From contig NZ_CP070619.1 of the NCBI RefSeq assembly GCF_017068395.1, positions 8,494,001 to 8,558,000 on the forward strand: DNA of 64,000 nucleotides, written 5' to 3'. The notes beneath the pieces are model-generated. The model did not search any database. It was given only the letters and a program-made list of their open reading frames with translations, and was not told the origin of the DNA. The stretch comes from Rhodococcus pseudokoreensis (GTDB taxonomy: Bacteria > Actinomycetota > Actinomycetes > Mycobacteriales > Mycobacteriaceae). The position numbers were made by a program, and so were the translations under genes. Below are positions 4,789 through 19,062 of the stretch, in pieces; position 1 is the stretch's first letter; the number at the start of each line of letters is the position of its first letter.

Positions 4789-5382
4789 ATGGGAGGCTTC
4801 ATCGGGCAGCACGCGGCCGCTGTCACCAGCCTGGCCTTCGTGGTCGCCGGCCTCGCAGTCCTCGCGGGTCGCCGGCGCGACGCGCCGTCCGTCACCTACG
4901 GCCTGCTCGTCGTCGCGGTCGGTCTCGGGTCGCTCGTCCAGCACGGACCCGACCCGTCGTGGCAGGAATACGCGCACGACATCCCGATCGCGACGTTGCT
5001 CGCGTACATCGCCGTAGACGCCGCGTCCGATCGGTTCGGCCGTCGGCTGTCGCCGGGGTGGTGGCTCGCTGTTCCGTTCCTGATGGTTCCCACCGTGGCT
5101 GCCGGCCCGACGGCGTCGACGATCGTGCAGGCACTGCTCGCCGCGGCCGCAGTGGGACTCTGCCTCGAACGCGCCCGCGTCCGACCGGAGTTGCGGCGCA
5201 CGACGATCGTCGCGGCAGTGCTTATCACGTCCGGCGCTCTGCTCGGTGCCGTGGACGCCAGTCTTCTGCCGGGCCACGCGCTGTGGCACGTGCTCGCCGC
5301 CGCCGGATTGTGGCGGCTGGCGCCCACGATCGGGCGAAGGACTACCCCGGGTCCGCGAAACTGTGGGAGTCGGTGCGGTTGA
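4789..5382 (+). CDS. multi-pass membrane protein, possible CREST-superfamily hydrolase
   Basis: This 197-residue protein has about seven hydrophobic helices and a short basic C-terminus. The polar residues inside the helices are telling: S48-x3-H52 (SLVQH), an Asp at D64 (HDIPIA), and H163-x3-H167 (HALWH) in the last helix. S-x3-H, an Asp and H-x3-H is the signature of the CREST superfamily (alkaline ceramidases, PAQR receptors, Per1), thought to be metal-dependent membrane hydrolases. That link is my inference from motif spacing. The 3' end overlaps the convergent histidine phosphatase gene by 41 bp. An unspecified transporter-like role is the alternative. Confidence 0.65.
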   Translation: MGGFIGQHAAAVTSLAFVVAGLAVLAGRRRDAPSVTYGLLVVAVGLGSLVQHGPDPSWQEYAHDIPIATLLAYIAVDAASDRFGRRLSPGWWLAVPFLMVPTVAAGPTASTIVQALLAAAAVGLCLERARVRPELRRTTIVAAVLITSGALLGAVDASLLPGHALWHVLAAAGLWRLAPTIGRRTTPGPRNCGSRCG

Positions 5383-5923
5383 CCGACAGGACCCGCAACA
5401 CTCCCGCCCATTCGATCTCGCAGACCGCGCCGTTGACGATGCGCGGCACCGCTGTGGCGGACAGGTCGCCGAGCACCGCCCGGATGAGCGCCCCGTGAGT
5501 GATCACCACGACTCGGCCGCCGGGGTGCGTCCTGGCGATCGCGTCGATTGCACGGCGGCCCCGCGCCGAGACCGCCTCGAGCGGCTCGAGGTCCGGGAAG
5601 GCTCCGTCCGGCCACCGACGTTCGGCGTCCTCCCGGGTCATCCCTTCGGCGGCGCCGTAACTTCTCTCGACGAAGTCGGAATGCATTCCCGTGACATCGA
5701 TCCCGAGGTGCTCGGCGATGATCCGGCCGGTGTCGACCGCGCGAGACAACGGGGAGGTGACCACCGTGTCCCATGCGTCGTCTCGGAGCATCCGCGCCGT
5801 ATCGCGGGCCTGCCCGCGGCCGACGTCGTCGAGTGGTATGTCGCTGTGGCCCTGCAACAGTCCCCGCCGGTTCCAGTCGGTGCGGCCGTGGCGGACCAGC
5901 GCCGATCGGGTCGCCTCGCTCAT
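5342..5923 (-). CDS. histidine phosphatase (phosphoglycerate mutase-like)
   Basis: This 193-residue protein opens with LVRHGRTDWNRRGLLQGHSD, the RHG catalytic motif whose His is phosphorylated. SPLSRAVDTG (second Arg), ERSYGAAEGM (catalytic Glu) and VVITHGALIRAV (second His) follow, so every residue needed for phosphatase activity is present. ATG 5923 overlaps the stop of the ABC ATPase gene by 4 nt (ATGA), so it should be translationally coupled to the transporter. It is the last gene of the operon running from 12261. In that setting it probably removes phosphate from an imported organophosphate, although broad-specificity housekeeping activity is possible. Confidence 0.88.
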   Translation of the reverse strand: MSEATRSALVRHGRTDWNRRGLLQGHSDIPLDDVGRGQARDTARMLRDDAWDTVVTSPLSRAVDTGRIIAEHLGIDVTGMHSDFVERSYGAAEGMTREDAERRWPDGAFPDLEPLEAVSARGRRAIDAIARTHPGGRVVVITHGALIRAVLGDLSATAVPRIVNGAVCEIEWAGVLRVLSVNRTDSHSFADPG

Positions 5924-7023
5924 CGCGGCGATCCTGCGAGCACCGCCGTACCGATAGCGGGAACGTCCGCCTTCGCCGGGGCCGGGTAGAACAGGGCTCG
6001 GCGGATCGTCAGTCCGACGCGGTCGCCGACCACCGGCCGGGTTCCGCGGACCGCACACCGGAACTCCGCCCCGCGGCAGGCCACGACGACGTCGCTTGCG
6101 TCGCGCCCGAAGAGTGACGACATCACGATCCCCTGGGTGGTACCTGCGCTCTCCGTCGACGTCACCTCGATGTCGGAGGGCAGTACGGCAAGGGTGCCGG
6201 TTCCAGATCGTTTGTCCGCCAGCCGATTCCGATCCAGGTGCACGCGGTCGTCGGCGCTCGCGAAGCCGTGGTCGGAGACGGTGCCGGACAGCAGGTTCGC
6301 GTCCGAGAGGAACTTCGCGACAAAGGCAGACCGCGGTCGCTGCACGAGTTCCTCCGGTGTGCCGACCTGCTGAATCCGCCCATTGTCGAGCACGACGACC
6401 CGGTCGGCGAGGGCGAGAGCCTCGGCGCGGTCGTGCGTGACGTGCACGACCGTCAGGTTCTGCGCGCGGGTGAGGGTGCGCAGTTCCAGACGCAGCCGAT
6501 CGCGCAGCGGTTCGTCGAGTGCGGACAGCGCCTCGTCGAGCAGCAACGCGCGCGGCTGCGCCACCAGCGCCCGGGCGAGCGCGACGCGCTGGCGCTGCCC
6601 ACCGGACAGCGTCGCCGGATCACGCTTCGCCAACCCGGGCAGCCCCACCAGATCAAGCACGTCGGCGACCCGCTCGGCGCGCCGGGCGCGCGGCACCTTG
6701 GCTACCTCGAGCGGATACGCGACGTTACGCCCGACGCTGCGGTGCGGCCAGATCGCATGCTGCTGGAACACCATTCCCAGTCCACGCTTGTCGGGCGGCA
6801 CGGCGCGGCCGCCGTCGGCGACGACCTCGTCACCCAGACGCACGAGCCCCGCGGTGGGGGCGAGAAACCCGGCGACCGTGCGGAGCAGGGTGGTCTTCCC
6901 CGAACCCGACGGTCCGACGAGTGCGACGAACTCGCCGTCGCGGACGTCCAGGTCGACGCCGGACAGTCCCGCGGTGCCGTCAGGGTAGTGGAGGTCCACA
7001 GCGGTGAGGGTGATCGCGGACAT
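5920..7023 (-). CDS. ABC transporter ATP-binding protein, FbpC/PotA-like
   Basis: This 367-residue nucleotide-binding subunit has Walker A GPSGSGKT (37-44), Q-loop FQQHA (about 87), signature LSGGQRQR (139-146) and Walker B LLLDEALSALD (160-170), followed by a C-terminal TOBE-like domain from about 270. This is the architecture of the ferric/sulfate/polyamine/organophosphate importer class. It lies 27 nt downstream of the permease gene and overlaps the phosphatase gene by ATGA. It energises the importer encoded by the two preceding genes. Confidence 0.92.
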   Translation of the reverse strand: MSAITLTAVDLHYPDGTAGLSGVDLDVRDGEFVALVGPSGSGKTTLLRTVAGFLAPTAGLVRLGDEVVADGGRAVPPDKRGLGMVFQQHAIWPHRSVGRNVAYPLEVAKVPRARRAERVADVLDLVGLPGLAKRDPATLSGGQRQRVALARALVAQPRALLLDEALSALDEPLRDRLRLELRTLTRAQNLTVVHVTHDRAEALALADRVVVLDNGRIQQVGTPEELVQRPRSAFVAKFLSDANLLSGTVSDHGFASADDRVHLDRNRLADKRSGTGTLAVLPSDIEVTSTESAGTTQGIVMSSLFGRDASDVVVACRGAEFRCAVRGTRPVVGDRVGLTIRRALFYPAPAKADVPAIGTAVLAGSPR

Positions 7024-7050
7024 GAAGAGGATTCCGATCTGTGGAGTGTG

Positions 7051-8718
7051 TCAACGCCCGGCGCGGGTGCCGGCGAACAGGCCGAGACCGGCGATGCCGA
7101 CCAGCGCGACGAGAAGGGACAGCGCGGACGCGGCGTTGTAATCGCCGGCTTGCTGCAGGTTGAAGATGGACACCCCGAGAGTCTGGGTGCCGGGTGCCAC
7201 CAGCAGTACCGACATGGTCAATTCGCGTACCGCAGTCAACGCCACCAGCACGCCGCCGGTGGCCGCGGCAGGCACCGTCATCGCCACCGGCACGTCCCGT
7301 AGTGTCCGCAGGCGTGACGCGCCGGATGCGCGTGCCGCCTCCTCCAGCGACGTGGGGGTGGTGGACAGCGGCGCGCGCACCGCCTGCACGACGATTGCCA
7401 GGAACGCGGTGACATACGCGCACAGGATCACCCAACGGGTGTCGAACAAGCCCGTGTAGCGGCCGACGATCAGCCAGCCCACGGCGATGACCAGTCCGGG
7501 CACGGCCTGCGGCAGCATTGCTAGCAGATCGAGGCTCGTGTTGTCCCGTGACCGGGTGCGGGTGGTGAGCACCCCGATCACCAGTCCTGCGAAAGCGCAG
7601 ACGACTCCCGCGCCGACGGCGAGGAGGAGCGAGTTCTGCACGCCGACTATGGTGCCCGGCGCGGTCACGGCCGCCACGATGCTGTCAACGGTCAGGTTGT
7701 CCCAGGTCAGCGGCACGCCCGGGGCGGGGAGCAGCGCCTGGGAGGCGAGCGCGAGTATCGGAAGCCCCGTCAGTGCGAGACCGACGGCCCAGGCGAGTGC
7801 ACCGGTCAGGATGCGCGCACCGGCGAGCGGCAACGGTTGCGGGGCGGTGACCGGGCCGTCGAGTTGCCTGCTGTGCCGCGACAGTCGCCGATCGACGAAC
7901 ACCGCGAGGACCGCGAGCAGCAGCAACACGATCCCGATGGTGGAGACCACCTCGAGCGGCCGGTCCACCGTGCCCGACTGGATATAGCGGTACACCATCG
8001 TCGACAACGTCACGTATCGCTCCGGCAGGCCGATCAGTGCGGGAATCCCGAAGTCGGCCAGGTTCGACACCGCGGTGAGGGTGAACGCGGCGAGCAGGGC
8101 GGGCCGCAACAGCGGTAGCGTCACGGTGCGCATCGCGCGCCACGGCGAGGCGCCGCCGATCCGGGCGATCTGCTCGAGGTCGCCCGGCACCTTCCGCAAC
8201 GCTGCCGCGATGATCAGATACGCCAGCGGGTACGAGTGCACCGTCAGCAGGAAGACGACGCCGTCGCCACCGTAGATGTTCCACAGCGGATCACCGAACC
8301 GTTCCGCCCACACCCGGTTCACGAGGCCGCTCGGGCCGAGGAGGCCGGTCCACGCGATCGCCCCGACGAACGGTGGGATCAGCAACGGCGACAGCAGGAT
8401 CAGGCGCAGAACGCCGCGGCCGGGCAGATCGGTGCGGTCGAGCAACAACGCCATCACCGTCGCGAGGACCACCGCGAACACCGCCGACAGGCCGGCGGAG
8501 ACCACGCTGTGGGTCGCGGCGCCGACGATGTCGTCGTCGATCAGTTGCGCAATGTGGTTGCCGCCGAGACCGAGTGACACGACCGTGGCGAGCGGCGCGA
8601 CGATCACCGCGGCGACGAACAACCACAGCGCGACCCGCACGGCATCGACGGGGTCGAACCGCCGCCCGGGAAGGGCCCGGGCGGCGGACGACGAGACCGT
8701 CCTAACCGACGAGACCAT
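7051..8718 (-). CDS. ABC transporter permease, fused FbpB-type
   Basis: This 555-residue permease has about 12 membrane segments, formed by two tandem six-helix units as in FbpB/AfuB. EAA-type loops for ATPase contact are visible in both halves: ARIGGASPWRAMRTVTLP (first half) and ARASGASRLRTLRDVPV (second half). ATG 8718 (MVSSVRT) lies inside the end of the binding-protein gene (17-nt overlap), suggesting coupled translation; an in-frame codon six residues upstream is less likely. It forms the transmembrane channel of the importer whose substrate is discussed under the cluster finding. Confidence 0.9.
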   Translation of the reverse strand: MVSSVRTVSSSAARALPGRRFDPVDAVRVALWLFVAAVIVAPLATVVSLGLGGNHIAQLIDDDIVGAATHSVVSAGLSAVFAVVLATVMALLLDRTDLPGRGVLRLILLSPLLIPPFVGAIAWTGLLGPSGLVNRVWAERFGDPLWNIYGGDGVVFLLTVHSYPLAYLIIAAALRKVPGDLEQIARIGGASPWRAMRTVTLPLLRPALLAAFTLTAVSNLADFGIPALIGLPERYVTLSTMVYRYIQSGTVDRPLEVVSTIGIVLLLLAVLAVFVDRRLSRHSRQLDGPVTAPQPLPLAGARILTGALAWAVGLALTGLPILALASQALLPAPGVPLTWDNLTVDSIVAAVTAPGTIVGVQNSLLLAVGAGVVCAFAGLVIGVLTTRTRSRDNTSLDLLAMLPQAVPGLVIAVGWLIVGRYTGLFDTRWVILCAYVTAFLAIVVQAVRAPLSTTPTSLEEAARASGASRLRTLRDVPVAMTVPAAATGGVLVALTAVRELTMSVLLVAPGTQTLGVSIFNLQQAGDYNAASALSLLVALVGIAGLGLFAGTRAGR

Positions 8719-9733
8719 TGAACTTCCGGACCGCATCGTCCTGGATCTTCGTGATCTCCTGCAGATCCGGGGTGAGCAACGCCAGGTCGGACAGTGCCGG
8801 TGCCCCGTCCGGGGTCCCGACGTCGCCGCGCACCGGCAGGTACTGCTGCTTCACGGCGAGTTCCTGACCCTGCTTGCTCACGAGGAAGTCGACGAACTTG
8901 CGCGCGGCCTCGGTGTCGTCCGAACCGGTGACGATGCCAGCCGGCTGCGAGATGTACGGAATGCCGTCCGTGGGATAGCGCAGCGCGATCGGGGATCCCT
9001 TCGCCGCCAGTTCCCGCACCAGGTAGTCGACGACGATGCCCACCGGCTGCGTTCCCGCCGCGACGGCCTGCCCGACCGGTCCGTTGCTCTCCGCGACCAC
9101 CGGGTCGTTCGCGGCGAGGGCCTCGAGCCAGCTCTCGCCGAGTTCGGGCGTGCTGAGCCACACCGCGGTGTTGAACGCGGCGGCACCGGACACGTCGGGA
9201 TTCGGCAGCGTGATCTGGCCGCGGTACTTCGAGTCGGCCAGGTCCTTCCATGCGGTGGGTGGCGCGTCGACTGCAGTGGTGTTGTAGGCGATCACGGTCG
9301 GGATGATGCGAGTGCCGACGTAGTAGCCGTCCGGATCGACGACGTCCGGATTCAGCGCGTTCACATCGGCGGGGGTGTACTGCTGCAGCAGACCCTCGGC
9401 TTTGTAACCCTCGAAGGTCGGGGCGTCGGCCGCGAGCAGAACGTCGGCGCCGATCGTGCCGGTAGTGCGTTCGGCCTCGATGCGGGCGGTCAGGTCGCCG
9501 GTGCCCGCGCGGAACACCTCGACGTCGATGCCCGTCTCCGCGGTGAATTCGGCAACGAGCGCGTCGATCTTGGCCTGCGGTTCGGAGGTGTACACCGTCA
9601 GGGTCCCGGCGCCGCTGTCGGCGTTGCCGGTCTGTTCGGCGTCGGGTGCGGCGGGCTCGGAGCACGCGGCGAGGGTGAGCGCGGCGACCGTGCCGAGCGC
9701 GGCGGCCGATACGAGGCGGGACAGGGATTTCAC
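8702..9733 (-). CDS. Fbp/Afu-type solute-binding lipoprotein
   Basis: A 343-residue extracellular binding protein with a lipoprotein signal: basic MKSLSR, a hydrophobic core and lipobox LAAC with Cys24. The mature part follows the iron/organophosphate (type 1-2 periplasmic) family: GTLTVYTSEPQAKIDALV, a GADVLLAADAPT segment, and YNTTAV and KYRGQITLPNP motifs. True ferric-binding members carry adjacent tyrosines in the C-terminal lobe; the matching stretch here, GIVVDYLVREL, has a single Tyr. That, with the phosphatase and SIS-domain neighbours, argues against iron. It is 36 nt downstream of the phosphatase-fusion gene in the same operon. Confidence 0.9.
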   Translation of the reverse strand: MKSLSRLVSAAALGTVAALTLAACSEPAAPDAEQTGNADSGAGTLTVYTSEPQAKIDALVAEFTAETGIDVEVFRAGTGDLTARIEAERTTGTIGADVLLAADAPTFEGYKAEGLLQQYTPADVNALNPDVVDPDGYYVGTRIIPTVIAYNTTAVDAPPTAWKDLADSKYRGQITLPNPDVSGAAAFNTAVWLSTPELGESWLEALAANDPVVAESNGPVGQAVAAGTQPVGIVVDYLVRELAAKGSPIALRYPTDGIPYISQPAGIVTGSDDTEAARKFVDFLVSKQGQELAVKQQYLPVRGDVGTPDGAPALSDLALLTPDLQEITKIQDDAVRKFNGLVG

Positions 9734-9769
9734 GAATTCTCCTGGTCGAAGGGGGATGGCGAGGTCGGG

Positions 9770-11242
9770 TCAGGATGCGGCGGCGGTGAGCGTGGGGCTC
9801 GACCGGAACAGCACGTCGGGGGTGTGCAGGGGAATCGGCAGCGCGCTCACTCCGTGCCGGGAGCACCGCACTACCGAGTACATCGGGGCGTCGAACCCGA
9901 CGACGGTGTCGGCGGGCGTCCCGGTGTCCTGCAGGTAGGCGAGCGAACCACCCACCCATACCGGGATCCCGGCGAACACTCCGCTCATCGGGTGGTGGAA
10001 ATGGCCGGCGAGAATCGCCACGACATCGGAACCGTCGAGCGCCGCGGCCAGTTCCTCCGGGGCTGCCAGTTCACGTCCGGTGAGCGTGGCCGCCGGCGAC
10101 GGTACCGGCGGGTGGTGCAGTGCCAGGACCGTGCCGTTCGCTGCGGGCGAGCGCAACTCGGAGCGCAACAGGTCCAGATCCACCCGCGACACCGATCCCA
10201 CCGCGGTGTTGAGCCCGATCACCCGGAAACCGTGCACGTGCTCGACGGGATTCCGTCCGAAAAACGTTGCGAAGCTGTGTGGTTCGTCGTGGTTCCCGGG
10301 GACGACGACCACCGGGCACCCGAGTCGGACCCGCAACTCGTCGAACGCCGTGGCGAGAGCCGGGTAGGTCGACGATTCGCCGTGGTGTGACAGATCGCCG
10401 GTGACCACGACGACGTCGGGACGCAGCGTCGACGATTCGACGCGCTCGGCGACCAGTCGCACCCGGGCGATGCCGTCCACCCGGGTGTGGAGCCGCGCGG
10501 ACGCGGAGGCATGCACGTCGCTCAGGTGCAGCACCGTGAGGGTGGTGGCGTCGAGCAGTCGCGTGCGCAGAGCCGTCAGGTCGGCGTCCGTGAACCCGTG
10601 GGCACGAAGGTAGCTCGTCACGGTTCCGTGCCGGGCACGGAGGTCGGCGAGGGCGTCGCCGAGCACCGACGGCGGCGAATCCAGGTGCAATTCGAGGGCC
10701 CGGGCGTGCTCGGCGGGGTCGAGTGCCAGCCCCGTCAACAGGCGCCGCACCGCTTCCTCGCGGTGGGGCCGCACCTGCGTTCCGGACCGGGCGTAATCGT
10801 CGAGGATCACGGCGTCCGGAACCCCCACCGCTGCGAGCGCCAGAGCGACGAGCAACCCGGTGCGGTCCTTACCGGCGGTGCAGTGCACCAGGACAGGGGC
10901 GGGGGAGCAGGCGAGCCCGCGCAGCGCCTCCACGAGTGCGCTGCCACGTTCGTCGAGCAGGGCTCGGTAGACCTCGGCGATGTCCCCGGCCTGCGGTGGC
11001 CCCGTGCGCGGGTCATACAGCGGGTGGTGCGCCACCGTCCAGCCGCCGGTCGTGTCGGCCGCGGCGCGCTCGGTGGCGTCGCGCAGATCGATCACCGTTC
11101 GGATGCCGTACGCGTAGAGCATGTCCCGGCCGCCGGAATCGAGGTGGTCGAGCGCCGCGGAGCGGAACAGAGTGTGCGGTATCAGGCCGGGTCCCGCCAC
11201 CGCCCGCACGTTGAACGTGCCGGCCACCTCTATCGAATTCAC
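9770..11242 (-). CDS. tyrosine-phosphatase / metallophosphoesterase fusion protein
   Basis: This 490-residue two-domain protein joins two unrelated phosphatases. Residues 1-225 form a DSP/PTP-like domain with the C-x5-R loop HCTAGKDRTG (Cys121, Arg127), preceded by IDLRDATER as in bacterial Tyr/Ser phosphatases and PTP-like phytases. Residues 235-490 form a calcineurin-type CpdA-like metallophosphoesterase with DVH (242-244), GDLSHHGE (282-289), GNHD (316-319), HHPP (376-379) and GHFHH (413-417), so all metal ligands are present. GTG 11242 is chosen because AGAGGA precedes it by 8 nt. No signal peptide is seen, so it is cytosolic. It is cotranscribed with an importer and may process the imported phosphate mono- or diester. 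Confidence 0.85.
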   Translation of the reverse strand: MNSIEVAGTFNVRAVAGPGLIPHTLFRSAALDHLDSGGRDMLYAYGIRTVIDLRDATERAAADTTGGWTVAHHPLYDPRTGPPQAGDIAEVYRALLDERGSALVEALRGLACSPAPVLVHCTAGKDRTGLLVALALAAVGVPDAVILDDYARSGTQVRPHREEAVRRLLTGLALDPAEHARALELHLDSPPSVLGDALADLRARHGTVTSYLRAHGFTDADLTALRTRLLDATTLTVLHLSDVHASASARLHTRVDGIARVRLVAERVESSTLRPDVVVVTGDLSHHGESSTYPALATAFDELRVRLGCPVVVVPGNHDEPHSFATFFGRNPVEHVHGFRVIGLNTAVGSVSRVDLDLLRSELRSPAANGTVLALHHPPVPSPAATLTGRELAAPEELAAALDGSDVVAILAGHFHHPMSGVFAGIPVWVGGSLAYLQDTGTPADTVVGFDAPMYSVVRCSRHGVSALPIPLHTPDVLFRSSPTLTAAAS

Positions 11243-11361
11243 GACCCATCCTCTGTCACTCAACGTTCCATCTGTTCCGGAACGGCGTTCCGTCGGTGAC
11301 ATCGTGTGGGGCGGGCTTGAACGGGTGGGACCGTGAATCGAAACAATCGGCGGCGGGAACG

Positions 11362-12261
11362 CTAACAGTCGATCATGTTCCGGGCGCCGCACTCGTTCGT
11401 ATGACCCGGTTCGTCGGGAAGTGAATCGCTGAGTGCGTCCGGAACGACGTCGCGCGCCCCGGTGTCGACCGCCTGCTGCTCGGGATGGCCGAGTACCGCG
11501 CGCTGCAGGGCATACAGGATCGTCAACTGGCTGATCCGCGCAGAAAACGAATCCGCCTCGTTCTCGTGAACCCCCGCGCCTGCCCACAGCACGTGGTCCG
11601 AGATGCGGGTCAGCGGGGTATTGGAGTAGCTCGTGATCGCCACTACCGCCGCGTCCCGGTCACGCGCCGCTGCACACGCCCGCAGCGTGTGGGTGTTCGC
11701 ACCGGAGTAGCTGACGGCGAGACACACGTCCCGGTCGGTGAGCAGCCGAGCCGAGAACTGTTGTCCCAGAATGTCGAGCGGTGCCTCCACGCTGCGACCC
11801 ACGGTGGTGAACCGCAAGGCGGCATCCTGGATCGGTGGGGACGAGAAGCCGTTACCCACCAACAGGATCCGCCGGGCCCGCACGATCAGGTCCACGACGG
11901 CGGCGAACCCGGCGGGATCGATGGTCGCGCGGGTCGCGGTGAGCGCCTCGGCGGCGGCCCGGAATGCCGTGTCCACCGGGGTGGCCGCCGCGGCCTCGGG
12001 ATCCGGTGTCACACGGGCCAATTCGAGCCGAAGATGTTGGAATCCGCGGAAACCAAGTCGCTGGCACGCCCGAACCACTGTCGCCGGGGACGTTCCCGAC
12101 GCCGACGCCAGTTCCGCCGTCGACAACTCGACCACCGCCGCGGGCTCGGCGAGTACGACCCGCGCGACCCGCTGCTCCCCGGGGCCCAGAGTGGCCAGGC
12201 CGGCGCGCAACCGCGCCAGGGTTGTGCTCGAGCGCCACGGATCGGCGGAGCCATGCGACAT
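11362..12261 (-). CDS. RpiR/MurR-family transcriptional regulator (HTH-SIS)
   Basis: This 299-residue regulator has an N-terminal RpiR-type helix-turn-helix (about 25-85: LGPGEQRVARVVLAEP, LSTAELASASGTSPATVVRACQRLGFRGFQHLRLEL). A SIS domain follows (about 115-250), with ARRILLVGNGFSSPP and CLAVSYSGANTHTLRACAAARD, where Ser/Thr clusters bind phosphosugars. It is 119 nt upstream of the fusion phosphatase on the same strand and is the likely first gene or local controller of the import operon. Family members sense sugar phosphates, which supports a phosphorylated substrate for the transporter. Confidence 0.9.
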   Translation of the reverse strand: MSHGSADPWRSSTTLARLRAGLATLGPGEQRVARVVLAEPAAVVELSTAELASASGTSPATVVRACQRLGFRGFQHLRLELARVTPDPEAAAATPVDTAFRAAAEALTATRATIDPAGFAAVVDLIVRARRILLVGNGFSSPPIQDAALRFTTVGRSVEAPLDILGQQFSARLLTDRDVCLAVSYSGANTHTLRACAAARDRDAAVVAITSYSNTPLTRISDHVLWAGAGVHENEADSFSARISQLTILYALQRAVLGHPEQQAVDTGARDVVPDALSDSLPDEPGHTNECGARNMIDC

Positions 12262-12686
12262 GTCGGCACTGTCCTGTTCGTCCCCGCGCCGGCGGGCTCC
12301 GGCGGTGTCGGGATCGTCAGGGTAGTCACTGCACCGCCACCTCCGACGGTCGGGAGCGTCCGTTCACCGCGCCGTCATCCAGCATTTGCGCGCGCGTTCA
12401 GCAGATGTCGGAATTGTCACGACATGGCCTCGAAACGGTATCGAAACCTCAGAACTGCACAATTTTCACTCGCGTTTCTCAATAGTCGAACATCCGTACC
12501 TTGTTCATGCCGTGTGAATTTCGGGAGGAGGCCACGTTCGGGGGCCCGCCGCTGCAGATCTGCCGACGCGGGTTCGTGATCCCGACACCTTCGAGGCGCG
12601 GGACGAGGCACCGAAATGGATGGCCGGGAATCGACGTGAAGTCGCCGGCATGCCGCGTCCGCAAGCGCGGAGAGGATTGAGCCAGC
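12262..12686. other. intergenic region between divergent regulator and rpf genes
   Basis: These 425 bp must hold the promoters of the RpiR-type gene (leftward) and the rpf gene (rightward). Part of it (12440-12500) is AT-richer than its surroundings, as expected for a promoter. GAGAGGA at 12671-12677 is a usable ribosome site for the ATG at 12687. I looked for the c-di-AMP (ydaO) riboswitch often found before rpfA genes and did not find its conserved core. Confidence 0.5.
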
Positions 12687-13358
12687 ATGACCACTCGCAA
12701 CATGGAGAAACGCACGTTCGGCTGGATCGCCCTGATCGGCGCGGCCGCCACCGTCCTACTGGGGCTGGGCGCGGGAACCGCGTTCGGCGCGCCGCACGAC
12801 TGGGAAGAAGTCGCGGAGTGCGAAAGCGGCGGAGACTGGACCACCGACACCGGAAACGGGTTCTACGGCGGCCTGCAGTTCACGCCGGAAACCTGGAAGG
12901 CGAACGGCGGGAAGGGCGACCCCTCGGAAGCCAGTGAGGCCGAGCAGATCCGGGTCGCCGAGAACGTCCTGAAAACCCAAGGCCCCGGCGCGTGGCCGGT
13001 GTGCGGCCAGTATCTGAAGAAGGGTGGCACAGCGCCCGTCGAGGTACCCCCCGTCACCAAGGCGCCTGCACCGGCAATCGAGACTCCCGACCCCGTCGAG
13101 ACGCCGGATGTCGTCGAGACGCCGGACGCTGTCGAAACACCCGGTGTCTTGGAGACGCCGGACGCTGTCGGGACGCCTGATCTCGCGGAGACTCCCGACG
13201 TCGTCGAGACGCCCGCACCGGTCGAAGTACCTGCGACAGACGAGGATCCCGCCACGGTGAAGGCTGCCGCCCAGGAGGCCCTGGACAGAGCCCGCGCGCT
13301 TGCCGCGCAGAACGGGTCGAGTGAGGAGTTCGAGGAGAGGGCGGCGGCACCGCGGTAA
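12687..13358 (+). CDS. resuscitation-promoting factor (secreted transglycosylase)
   Basis: This 223-residue secreted muralytic enzyme has a signal peptide ending near residue 34 (TAFGA/PHDW) and a compact Rpf domain: DWEEVAECESGGDW with the catalytic Glu46, GFYGGLQFTPETW, and QIRVAENVLKTQGPGAWPVCGQY. Two cysteines (45 and about 106) are placed for the usual disulfide. Rpf enzymes cleave peptidoglycan and promote regrowth from dormancy. After the domain, residues 131-178 are a low-complexity E-T-P-D-x-V repeat, as in RpfA proteins, and the C-terminal 40 residues are Ala/Glu-rich and helical. The repeat probably acts as a wall-spanning spacer. Confidence 0.93.
   Translation: MTTRNMEKRTFGWIALIGAAATVLLGLGAGTAFGAPHDWEEVAECESGGDWTTDTGNGFYGGLQFTPETWKANGGKGDPSEASEAEQIRVAENVLKTQGPGAWPVCGQYLKKGGTAPVEVPPVTKAPAPAIETPDPVETPDVVETPDAVETPGVLETPDAVGTPDLAETPDVVETPAPVEVPATDEDPATVKAAAQEALDRARALAAQNGSSEEFEERAAAPR
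13077..13220 (+). repeat. tandem coding repeat, ETPD(x)V units in Rpf
   Basis: About eight imperfect 18-nt units (core gagacgccggacgctgtc) encode ETPDVV, ETPDAV, ETPGVL and GTPDLA. Units differ mostly at silent or conservative positions. Repeats of this kind change copy number by slippage, so the length of the wall spacer may vary between strains. Confidence 0.8.
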
Positions 13359-13423
13359 CGTCCGACGCTTCTTGTGCGAACTAACCACAGAACTGTCGTG
13401 TCGTCGCCTACGAAGGAGCTCTC

Positions 13424-17132: not shown

Positions 17133-17960
17133 GTGGAGCTTTCGCAGACCGTCGAATGGCGCGGCAGATCGGTGGCGTGGGACAGGTTCGGGAACGGCCC
17201 CGCCGTGGTGATGTGCCACGGGACGCCGTGGTCTTCGCAGCTGTGGTGGCCGTTCGCACGTGCACTCGCCGCCGAGTTCTCGGTCTACCTGTGGGACATG
17301 CCCGGGTACGGGCAGTCGTCGAAGGACGGCGCCCACGACGTCGATCTCGGCGTCCAGGGGGAACTGCTCGCCGACCTCCTCCGGCATTGGAACCTCGACG
17401 CACCTCATGTCGTCGCGCACGACTACGGGGGCGCCGTCTCGCTCCGCGCCCATCTTCTGCACGGCGCGCGGTACGCCTCGCTGGCCCTGATAGACGTGGT
17501 GGCGCTGCGGCCGTGGGGATCCGACTACTTCCGGCTCGTCGCGGACAACGCCGACGTCTTCGCTGCGCAACCGGCGTCCGTGCACCGTGGTGCCCTCGAG
17601 GCGTACGTCGCGGGCGCATCCCACCGCGGCCTGACCCCGGCTCAGATGGCCGTGGTGACCACGCCGTGGCTGTCGGAGGAGGGTCAGGTCGCGTTCTACC
17701 GGCAGATCGCTCAGGCCGACGAGCGGTACACCGACGAGATCCAGGACCGGTATGCGTCGATCGACCTTCCCGTTGCGGTCGTGTGGGGCAGAGACGATGC
17801 GTGGATCCCCGTCGACCGGGCCGAGGAACTGGCGCGCCTCATCCCCGGTGCGACACTCGAGGTCATCGACGGCGCCGGGCACCTGATCCAGTTCGACGCC
17901 CCCGTCGAACTAGCGGTGTCTCTGCACAGGTGGCTCACGGCGCAGTCAAACCCTCGATGA
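17133..17960 (+). CDS. alpha/beta hydrolase with Asp nucleophile (dehalogenase/epoxide-hydrolase-like)
   Basis: This 275-residue alpha/beta hydrolase has the oxyanion motif CHGTPWSS (29-35), nucleophile elbow AHDYGGAV with Asp97 rather than Ser, an acid in VVWGRDDAWIP near 215, and catalytic His in GAGHLIQFD (His250). An Asp nucleophile points to haloalkane dehalogenases or epoxide hydrolases, which form an ester intermediate on Asp. GTG 17133 is preferred; a frame extension to 17073 would run through the terminator hairpin. The 3' end overlaps the convergent beta-lactamase gene by 26 bp. The substrate is unknown. Confidence 0.85.
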   Translation: MELSQTVEWRGRSVAWDRFGNGPAVVMCHGTPWSSQLWWPFARALAAEFSVYLWDMPGYGQSSKDGAHDVDLGVQGELLADLLRHWNLDAPHVVAHDYGGAVSLRAHLLHGARYASLALIDVVALRPWGSDYFRLVADNADVFAAQPASVHRGALEAYVAGASHRGLTPAQMAVVTTPWLSEEGQVAFYRQIAQADERYTDEIQDRYASIDLPVAVVWGRDDAWIPVDRAEELARLIPGATLEVIDGAGHLIQFDAPVELAVSLHRWLTAQSNPR

Positions 17961-18906
17961 CGGCCGCGGTCGTGTCGGCGATCGCCTGGTTGTTTCCCTG
18001 CGCGTCTTCCTGATTCGTGAGGCTGTCGGTGAGGACGGCGAGGACGACGGGGGAGCCGTCCGGGCTCCAGGCGACGCCGGCGTCGTTTGCGGTCCCGAAC
18101 CCGCCGCCACCGGTCTTGTCGGCGGCGGTCCATCCGGGCGGCAGACCGGCACGCATCCGCTTGTCCGAAGTCTTGCTCGCCCGCATCCAGTCCAGCAGCT
18201 GATCGCGGCTCGCTGCGTCGAGCGCATCGTCCAGGAGCAGCGCCCGGAAACCCTGGGCGAGGCCGGTCGGTGTCGTCGTGTCTCGGGGATCGCCGCGGAA
18301 TGCGGTGTTGAGTTCGGTCTCCCACCGATCCAGTCGTGTGCTCTCGTCGCCGAGGTCGCGGGCGAGTGCGGTGATCGCCTGCGGGCCGCCGATCTCGCGG
18401 AGCAGATAGTTTCCGGCGGTGTTGTCGCTCCGGGTCAGCGCCGCTTCGGCGATCTGCCCCAACGTCATCGGGGTGCCCACGGCAGCGGCGGTGACCGGCG
18501 AGTTCTCGACGAGATCGCCGGGTTCGATCACCACAGTCTTGTCGAGGGACGTCGACCCGTCCTCGACCTTGCGCAGGACCGCGGCGGACGCGTAAGCCTT
18601 GAACGTCGAACACATGGCGAACCGTTCGTCGCCCCGGTGGCTGTAGACCGCGCCGGTCGCGGGATCGACGGCCGTCACGCCGATCCGCGTGGCGTACCGC
18701 GCTTCCAGTGCCTCGATTTTCGCGTCCAGGGACTGGCGATCCGGCGCCGCCACCACCTCCGACATCGCGGGTGGGGTCTCCTCCGCGGTGGCCGTGCACG
18801 CCCCGACCAGCAGCGGCAGAGCCACTGCCAGGGCAACGGCGCCGCGACGACCGGTGCGCCGAGGCTTCGGATGATTGGGCTTTGGGTGATGTCGATGTCT
18901 GGGCAT
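17935..18906 (-). CDS. class A beta-lactamase (lipoprotein)
   Basis: A 323-residue serine beta-lactamase. A basic, Pro/His-rich N-terminus precedes a hydrophobic segment and lipobox LVGAC (Cys37), so it should be anchored outside the membrane. All active-site motifs are present: STFK (100-103, nucleophile Ser100), SDN (160-162), ETELN (196-200, general-base Glu) and KTGGG (about 265). It hydrolyses beta-lactams through an acyl-enzyme. It is divergent from a LysR gene (157 bp between starts), the AmpR/BlaI-like arrangement for inducible expression. The predicted signal is more basic than usual. Confidence 0.92.
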   Translation of the reverse strand: MPRHRHHPKPNHPKPRRTGRRGAVALAVALPLLVGACTATAEETPPAMSEVVAAPDRQSLDAKIEALEARYATRIGVTAVDPATGAVYSHRGDERFAMCSTFKAYASAAVLRKVEDGSTSLDKTVVIEPGDLVENSPVTAAAVGTPMTLGQIAEAALTRSDNTAGNYLLREIGGPQAITALARDLGDESTRLDRWETELNTAFRGDPRDTTTPTGLAQGFRALLLDDALDAASRDQLLDWMRASKTSDKRMRAGLPPGWTAADKTGGGGFGTANDAGVAWSPDGSPVVLAVLTDSLTNQEDAQGNNQAIADTTAAVIEGLTAP

Positions 18907-19062
18907 GGATCCAATGTGGGGTGCCCCTGCCCATAGCGCAAAGACGACTCGACCTTCGCCGCGAGTCGGGTGCGCTATCACTCCAGTTCAGGGGGGCGTT
19001 TTGTGTGCGCGAAGTGGCGGTGTCGCCCGAACCGGGCGGTCGGAACTGGTTCAATGGGCGCC

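Follow-up and report, generated by a model that had tools for sequence, protein, structure and literature searches.

An Importer Operon and the Question of Its Cargo

Which compound is taken up by a transporter whose binding protein belongs to the superfamily of both ferric-iron and hexose-phosphate importers, and which is encoded together with an RpiR-type regulator and three hydrolase domains? This question is raised by an operon in the window analyzed here, the whole 64,000-nucleotide stretch at positions 8494001–8558000 of a 9.87-Mb Rhodococcus-type genome. The nearest named relative found was R. koreensis DSM 44498, its binding protein being 97% identical to that of the window. Based on the sequence comparisons below, we lean toward a phosphate-starvation operon that would scavenge a small organophosphate, most likely a phosphodiester of the glycerophosphodiester or cyclic type. 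Open reading frames and Pfam matches gave a complete six-gene operon at 5342–12261 with all genes on the minus strand, in the order RpiR, tyrosine phosphatase–metallophosphoesterase (PTP–MPE) fusion, binding protein, fused permease, ATPase and histidine phosphatase:

11362..12261, minus strand, RpiR/MurR-type regulator with HTH_6 and SIS domains, 299 amino acids (aa), first gene of the operon (Pfam)
9770..11302, minus strand, PTP–MPE fusion, Y_phosphatase3 and Metallophos in one 515-aa reading (Pfam)
11302, minus strand, ATG start of the PTP–MPE fusion; an alternative GTG start at 11242 is possible
about 11230–10553, minus strand, PTP domain of the fusion, with HCTAGKDRTG
about 10537–9890, minus strand, MPE domain of the fusion, with all metal ligands present
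8702..9733, minus strand, substrate-binding protein, lipoprotein-type, AfuA/FbpA superfamily, 343 aa (Pfam SBP_bac_6)
7051..8718, minus strand, fused two-half permease with two BPD_transp_1 stretches (Pfam)
5920..7023, minus strand, ATP-binding cassette (ABC) ATPase (Pfam ABC_tran)
5342..5923, minus strand, histidine phosphatase, branch 1 (Pfam His_Phos_1)

The permease start, ATG 8718, overlaps the 3′ end of the binding-protein gene, and an ATGA overlap at 5923–5920 joins the ATPase and histidine phosphatase genes. These coordinates and Pfam matches bore out the sequence-only reading of this DNA, which had described an operon of regulator, PTP–MPE, importer genes and a histidine phosphatase coupled to the ATPase by ATGA. 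Its further statement, that the operon would be annotated as ferric uptake, was borne out in part: among the best 120 of 658 matches, iron(III)-transport names occur in UniRef, JGI and a few NCBI records, but most NCBI names are neutral, reading only "ABC transporter substrate-binding protein".

The Binding Protein Keeps Much of a Phosphate Cradle and Lacks Three Iron Ligands

Iron is held in FbpA and HitA by H9, E57, Y195, and Y196, all of which appear as mutated residues in PDB titles. In an alignment of 31 sequences, comprising the window protein, 26 relatives and four solved proteins, the positions equivalent to these ligands of HitA are P52, A102, Y237, and L238, so only one of the four is kept. 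Throughout the 27 family sequences Y237 is invariant and position 238 is L or V, confirming the earlier remark that the adjacent-tyrosine pair is missing. The binding protein is therefore probably not a ferric binder, as judged from its aligned residues.

A cradle for the phosphate group, made of S, T, and G residues at three helix starts, is described for AfuA/P5PA-like organophosphate binders in the part of PMC8427247 consulted. In the window's family, S37, G38, S148, G149, D206, and E229 of AfuA correspond to T78, G79, S182, G183, D236, and D/E256, and S216 is kept, while T60, T150, and G185 are replaced by D103, A184, and N217. Helices begin at 78, 183, and 217 in a predicted model (AlphaFold, mean predicted local distance difference test 87.3), as the cradle needs. 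The protein would thus have the cradle of the broad AfuA/P5PA-like group, which alone is a weak criterion because ferric binders also hold an anion at that position. The sugar motif H205–D206–E229 of AfuA is two-thirds kept, H205 being V235 in all 27 sequences; for this stretch the single-sequence and 31-sequence alignments agree and were followed, the profile alignment being two residues off. Loss of the motif abolished binding by AfuA, and loss of H205 abolished that of glucose-6-phosphate (G6P), according to the portion of PMC4546632 available. Because the D206 and E229 equivalents are kept and H205 is lost, the binding protein looks related to organophosphate binders, yet not an AfuA.

A profile of 66 family members was then compared with solved structures, and VcA0625 (152.9 bits), AfuA (150.1 bits), and P5PA (130.5 bits) came first. 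The iron proteins scored lower (HitA 108, FutA1 102.5, others 94–98, and H. influenzae FbpA about 89 bits), as did MctA (about 95 bits) and the Salmonella 2-aminoethylphosphonate protein (93.5 bits). The VcA0625 structure is titled as a G6P-binding protein, and all three leaders bind phosphate esters (PMC8427247, in the part seen; 8x1a by PDB title). The likeness to the AfuABC/VcA0625 hexose-phosphate importers and P5PA, although closest by profile, is limited to 20–24% identity in structural alignments.

Invariant in the 27 sequences are Y48, T49, S50, E51, P52, R75, T78, G79, D103, R142, S182, G183, S216, N217, D236, Y237, and R302. Since this set includes loci without hydrolases (e.g. L117, L119, L123), pocket residues are invariant whether or not hydrolases adjoin, which suggests one ligand class for the binding proteins of both kinds of locus.

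A PHO-Box-Like Repeat Precedes the Operon

Upstream of the regulator gene, three elements were located:

12362..12379, minus strand, PHO-box-like repeat GATGACGGCGCGGTGAAC, two GRTGAAC-like units with an 11-bp period, 12 of 14 positions (motif search and alignment)
12319..12324, minus strand, conserved −10-like element TACCCT, TANCCT in relatives (11 sequences of 7 genomes aligned)
12287..12304, minus strand, inverted repeat CGCCGG-N6-CCGGCG, located downstream of the −10-like element and ahead of the start codon, kept in 7 genomes (alignment)

The repeat begins 118 nucleotides (nt) upstream of the RpiR start, and its two half-sites are nearly the sole conserved block above the promoter in the aligned upstream sequences, in which two of the genomes are represented by loci L007 and L039. 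A PHO-box layout of GTTCACC units is given for Streptomyces in the section of PMC4415409 consulted. The inverted repeat is a candidate operator for RpiR.

As the first motif pattern was derived from the operon itself, its match there is no evidence, and the unbiased consensus GRTGAACN4GRTGAAC was used. With at most one mismatch, 19 sites were found in the genome vs. 2 for the reversed control. Two of them precede Pho-system genes: phoU has an exact site at a distance of about 55 nt, and pstS, the only PstS-like gene above the Pfam cut-off in this genome, has one with a single mismatch at about 146 nt. The remaining 17 are mostly within called genes. With its two mismatches, the site of the operon falls outside the 19. 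A PHO-box-like site is present at the same place in seven of the nine full operons of the window's family, and the shuffle p of the best site per upstream region was 0.003–0.017 in five Rhodococcus operons (window, L008, L009, L010, and L115), 0.07 in L122, 0.14 in L007, and 0.96 in L114.

Similar sites were found in a second lineage, a genus (g4) represented by 11 genomes in which no hydrolases adjoin the transporter (four with cut flanks). All 11 loci carry a site of 12–13 of 14 positions (p 0.005–0.025 each), about 96–123 nt upstream of the binding-protein gene and oriented as the pstS and phoU boxes. In one of these genomes (G139), only nine sites have at most one mismatch (control, 1), one being at the transporter, and the two exact sites precede pstS and phoU. 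The pstS and phoU genes thus provide internal controls for the motif in both lineages, and the operon carries a predicted PHO box like theirs, as would befit a member of the Pho regulon. Among 35 upstream regions, none had a DtxR/IdeR-like site that stood out (p 0.02–0.03 in two of them), and the best one above the window's RpiR gene matched 11 of 19 positions (p about 0.23), in a consensus search with no positive control.

The gene divergent from the operon, at 12687–13358, encodes a transglycosylase-like (Rpf-type) protein (Pfam); relative to it, the repeat at 12362–12379 has the pstS-like orientation at a distance of about 310 nt.

RpiR, PTP, and MPE Recur With a Second, Ugp-Like Importer

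The sequence-only reading had counted three phosphatase domains. PTP, MPE, and histidine phosphatase domains were all found, but the MPE is better described as a phosphodiesterase type than as a plain phosphatase. It falls in the Rv0805/CpdA class, with Rv0805 as the nearest solved structure (118 bits); an Enterobacter phosphohydrolase structure, which we take to be GpdQ, scored 27 bits against it. PtpB was the nearest solved structure to the PTP domain (64 bits). In 24 operon-bearing loci the catalytic residues are intact, namely the MPE metal ligands in 24, the PTP loop where it was found (22), and the histidine-phosphatase residues where found (20, one alignment stopping before the second histidine). 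The SIS motif residues of RpiR, a family whose ligands are often sugar phosphates, are retained in most of 19 aligned orthologs. Among 40 loci with any hydrolase, the MPE was present in all 40, PTP in 38, RpiR in 34, and the histidine phosphatase in 34 of the 38 having downstream sequence.

PTP–MPE pairs outside the AfuA-type operon led to a second operon with the order RpiR, ATPase, binding protein, PTP, MPE, permease, permease (L229–L246). The search for its MPE in 301 genomes gave 18 matches above 420 bits, the next best being 372, and the order was seen in all 18 loci read, of which L236 is cut upstream and L242 and L246 have single genes that align in pieces. The RpiR proteins of the first seven read with RpiR are 39–42% identical to that of the window, compared with 27–29% for the other RpiR-type matches of the window genome. 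The window genome has no second operon, the MPE search giving one match (62%), taken as the Rv0805-like gene.

The second importer is of the sugar/Ugp class. UgpBAEC systems import glycerol-3-phosphate and glycerophosphodiesters, and organophosphate uptake is established in Pho regulons. In L232 the best NCBIfam models were UgpB (62 bits), UgpC (454), UgpA (123), and UgpE (124), of which UgpC lies above the subfamily cut-off and the others below. UgpB of M. tuberculosis binds glycerophosphocholine and other glycerophosphodiesters, as reported in the part of PMC8603345 consulted. The window's importer differs from UgpBAEC, since its binding protein and permease match other families and its operon includes hydrolases and RpiR; the link between them is the RpiR–PTP–MPE cassette, which the Ugp-like importer carries in relatives. 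A common cargo class is argued because two importer classes feed one cassette. The phosphodiester part of our reading rests, indirectly, on the MPE, which is never missing in hydrolase-bearing loci, and on this Ugp-like sister operon.

Distribution Across Actinobacteria

Among 301 genomes of the window's family, 49 matched the binding protein at E 1e-30, and 44 of these at 50% identity or more; the remaining five fell below it. The 44 genomes were read, three via loci L008, L009, and L010, taken as the same genomes. The full gene set was found in 9, the transporter alone in 32 (4 with cut flanks), an RpiR remnant with the transporter in 1 (L111), and the binding protein without a nearby permease or ATPase in 2. 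The remnant of L111 (8717–8809) lies before an intact transporter whose binding protein is 93–94% identical to that of the window, so the regulator and hydrolases were apparently lost recently. On the binding-protein tree, hydrolase presence showed six label changes, at least four of them forced by well-supported branches; the outgroup branches of this tree are long, and no more is concluded from it than that presence changed several times.

Two other families also have the gene set. The Microbacteriaceae-type family has 26 loci in 25 of 398 genomes, with an MPE in 24 loci and not in L181 or L188, the latter cut upstream. In Micrococcaceae, PTP and MPE were present in all seven named loci, which came from a pattern-based scan and are not a random sample. 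A search for the same gene order in other actinobacteria, as earlier recommended, thus showed that the set recurs in three actinobacterial families, and it is not a chance arrangement because of this recurrence. The opposite finding, regular occurrence of the transporter without phosphatases, had been named in advance as evidence against organophosphate uptake, and it holds in the window's family but not in the two others.

In three genomes whose AfuA-type transporter has no adjoining hydrolases (G195, G049, and G101), the second operon is present, and its enzymes may act in trans.

Organophosphate, Metal, or Signaling Cassette

In the scavenging operon that we favor, a PhoP/RegX3-type regulator would turn on or tune expression under phosphate scarcity. 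The phosphate group would be held in the cradle of helix starts T78–G79, S182–G183, and S216–N217, while D236 and D/E256 would hold the remainder of the ligand. Permease and ATPase would then import the intact compound, the MPE would cut the diester, and the histidine phosphatase and PTP domain would free phosphate from the resulting monoester. RpiR would sense the compound or its monoester and act at the inverted repeat (12304–12287) below the promoter, and in related genomes the RpiR–PTP–MPE cassette would also serve the Ugp-like importer.

Several observations weigh against this reading. The PHO-box-like site is absent from two of the nine full operons of the family, is oriented in the operon opposite to the pstS and phoU boxes, and is lacking in nearly all Microbacteriaceae-type and most Rhodococcoides loci. 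In a single-sequence search the binding protein gave a near tie (AfuA 62, VcA0625 60.5, HitA 60, and P5PA 50 bits). In 32 of the 44 family genomes with the binding protein, the transporter has no adjoining hydrolase, a 33rd keeps only the RpiR remnant, and of these 33 genomes all but G195, G049, and G101 (that is, 30) also lack the second operon. The earlier proposal of an organophosphate rather than ferric importer therefore fared unevenly: the profile relation to AfuA, VcA0625, and P5PA, the loss of three of four iron ligands, the largely kept cradle and the PHO-box-like repeats in two lineages agree with it, but the frequent absence of hydrolases in the window's family does not.

The main rival to a phosphodiester is a phosphomonoester, that is, a sugar or polyol phosphate imported as by AfuA, with an accessory MPE and an RpiR that senses a sugar phosphate. 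The G6P- and pyridoxal-phosphate-binding proteins that are the nearest solved relatives by profile, the D206 and E229 equivalents, the two phosphomonoesterase-type domains of the operon and the sugar phosphates that RpiR-type regulators often bind all fit it. We nevertheless consider it unlikely, as the H205 that AfuA needs for G6P is valine in all 27 family sequences aligned and PTP and histidine phosphatase are sometimes absent where the MPE remains. An importer of iron, another metal or a metal chelate, in which the phosphatases would be incidental, appears improbable. The binding protein has the same fold as FutA1, HitA, and MctA, and fold scores fail to tell ferric from organophosphate binders, Foldseek putting HitA first for the predicted model; HitA also ties with AfuA in the single-sequence score, several database names agree, and in some Rhodococcoides loci the transporter lies behind YcnI–CopC–CopD, but in others of this group the copper genes and the transporter are separated by further genes. 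Unlike the FbpABC, HitA, and FutA systems, moreover, the window's protein keeps only the one iron ligand, organophosphate binders top the profile ranking, PHO-box-like sites occur in two lineages, and the search for DtxR/IdeR-like sites, within the limits given above, pointed to none.

That the RpiR–PTP–MPE genes form a signaling cassette for cyclic-nucleotide or protein-phosphate turnover, riding with transporters and processing no cargo, seems very improbable. The nearest relatives of the MPE are the cyclic-nucleotide enzymes Rv0805 and CpdA and that of the PTP is PtpB, and the cassette occurs with two importer classes and is often missing. In the loci read, however, it is embedded in operons for importers, and in the window such an operon also has a PHO-box-like site and an additional histidine phosphatase, an arrangement that fits cargo processing better; the second importer resembles Ugp most closely. 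Import of 2-aminoethylphosphonate or another phosphonate is given the least credence of all. The importer proteins (binding protein, permease, and ATPase) find their best NCBIfam models in putative 2-aminoethylphosphonate systems (TIGR03261/3262/3265), the binding-protein model is matched by 27 of 27 relatives, and the binding protein shares Pfam13343 with the AepXVW/PhnSTUV importers; the scores, however, are far below the curated cut-offs (118/393, 160/593, and 288/458 bits, respectively). It is established that phosphatases do not cut C–P bonds, and no phosphonate-degrading, C–P bond enzyme was recognized by eye among the neighboring genes listed. Pho control would fit such an importer too, AepX being PhoBR-dependent in the part of PMC8316502 consulted.

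Returning to the phosphodiester reading, a wider proposal can be made, which we hold to be possible though rather doubtful: an undescribed actinobacterial route of phosphodiester scavenging, in which a portable RpiR–PTP–MPE cassette would be fed either by an AfuA-fold importer under PHO-box control or by a Ugp-like importer, with RpiR sensing the phosphodiester or its monoester. If true, binding of an intact phosphodiester by the AfuA-fold protein would, to our knowledge, be without precedent in its superfamily. All parts are of known kinds, and RpiR, PTP–MPE, histidine phosphatase, and PHO-box-like site come in addition to what the AfuA, VcA0625, and P5PA systems have; the combination, the PHO-box-like sites and the shared cassette were not found described in the open-licence literature searched, where no paper on this operon was found, as judged by title and opening of the abstract. 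Since many of these proteins bear iron(III)-transport names in UniRef and JGI records of Rhodococcus and related actinobacteria, a system that really belongs to phosphorus acquisition may have entered the iron models of these soil bacteria. The cassette common to two importer classes gives a handle on the RpiR signal and makes the substrate question testable, and the family offers an example of a transporter keeping an invariant-looking pocket while processing enzymes come and go.

Other Observations at Related Loci and in the Window

Binding-protein homologs (52–57% identical) were noted at L126 (flipped 7355–8362 and 12350–13378) and L127 (flipped 9423–10322); the 20 kb read there showed neither a permease nor an ATPase, and the homolog of L127, as called, has no lipobox; they are possibly stand-alone or cytoplasmic ligand-binding proteins. 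The Rhodococcoides loci with the transporter directly behind YcnI (DUF1775)–CopC–CopD are L014 (7718–13708) and the similar L011, L116, and L148–L150, and those with other genes between are L013 and L017–L023. In L131, from a distant actinobacterium, part of a PhoX alkaline phosphatase and an esterase resembling phytase flank the transporter (Pfam; flipped 104–874 and 6427–7929). Upstream of the transporter-only locus L123, a metallophosphoesterase with a laminin-G-like domain (5013–7184; Pfam) looks secreted by eye. Elsewhere in the window, 17935–18981 encodes a Beta-lactamase family protein (Beta-lactamase2, Pfam), of class A by eye.

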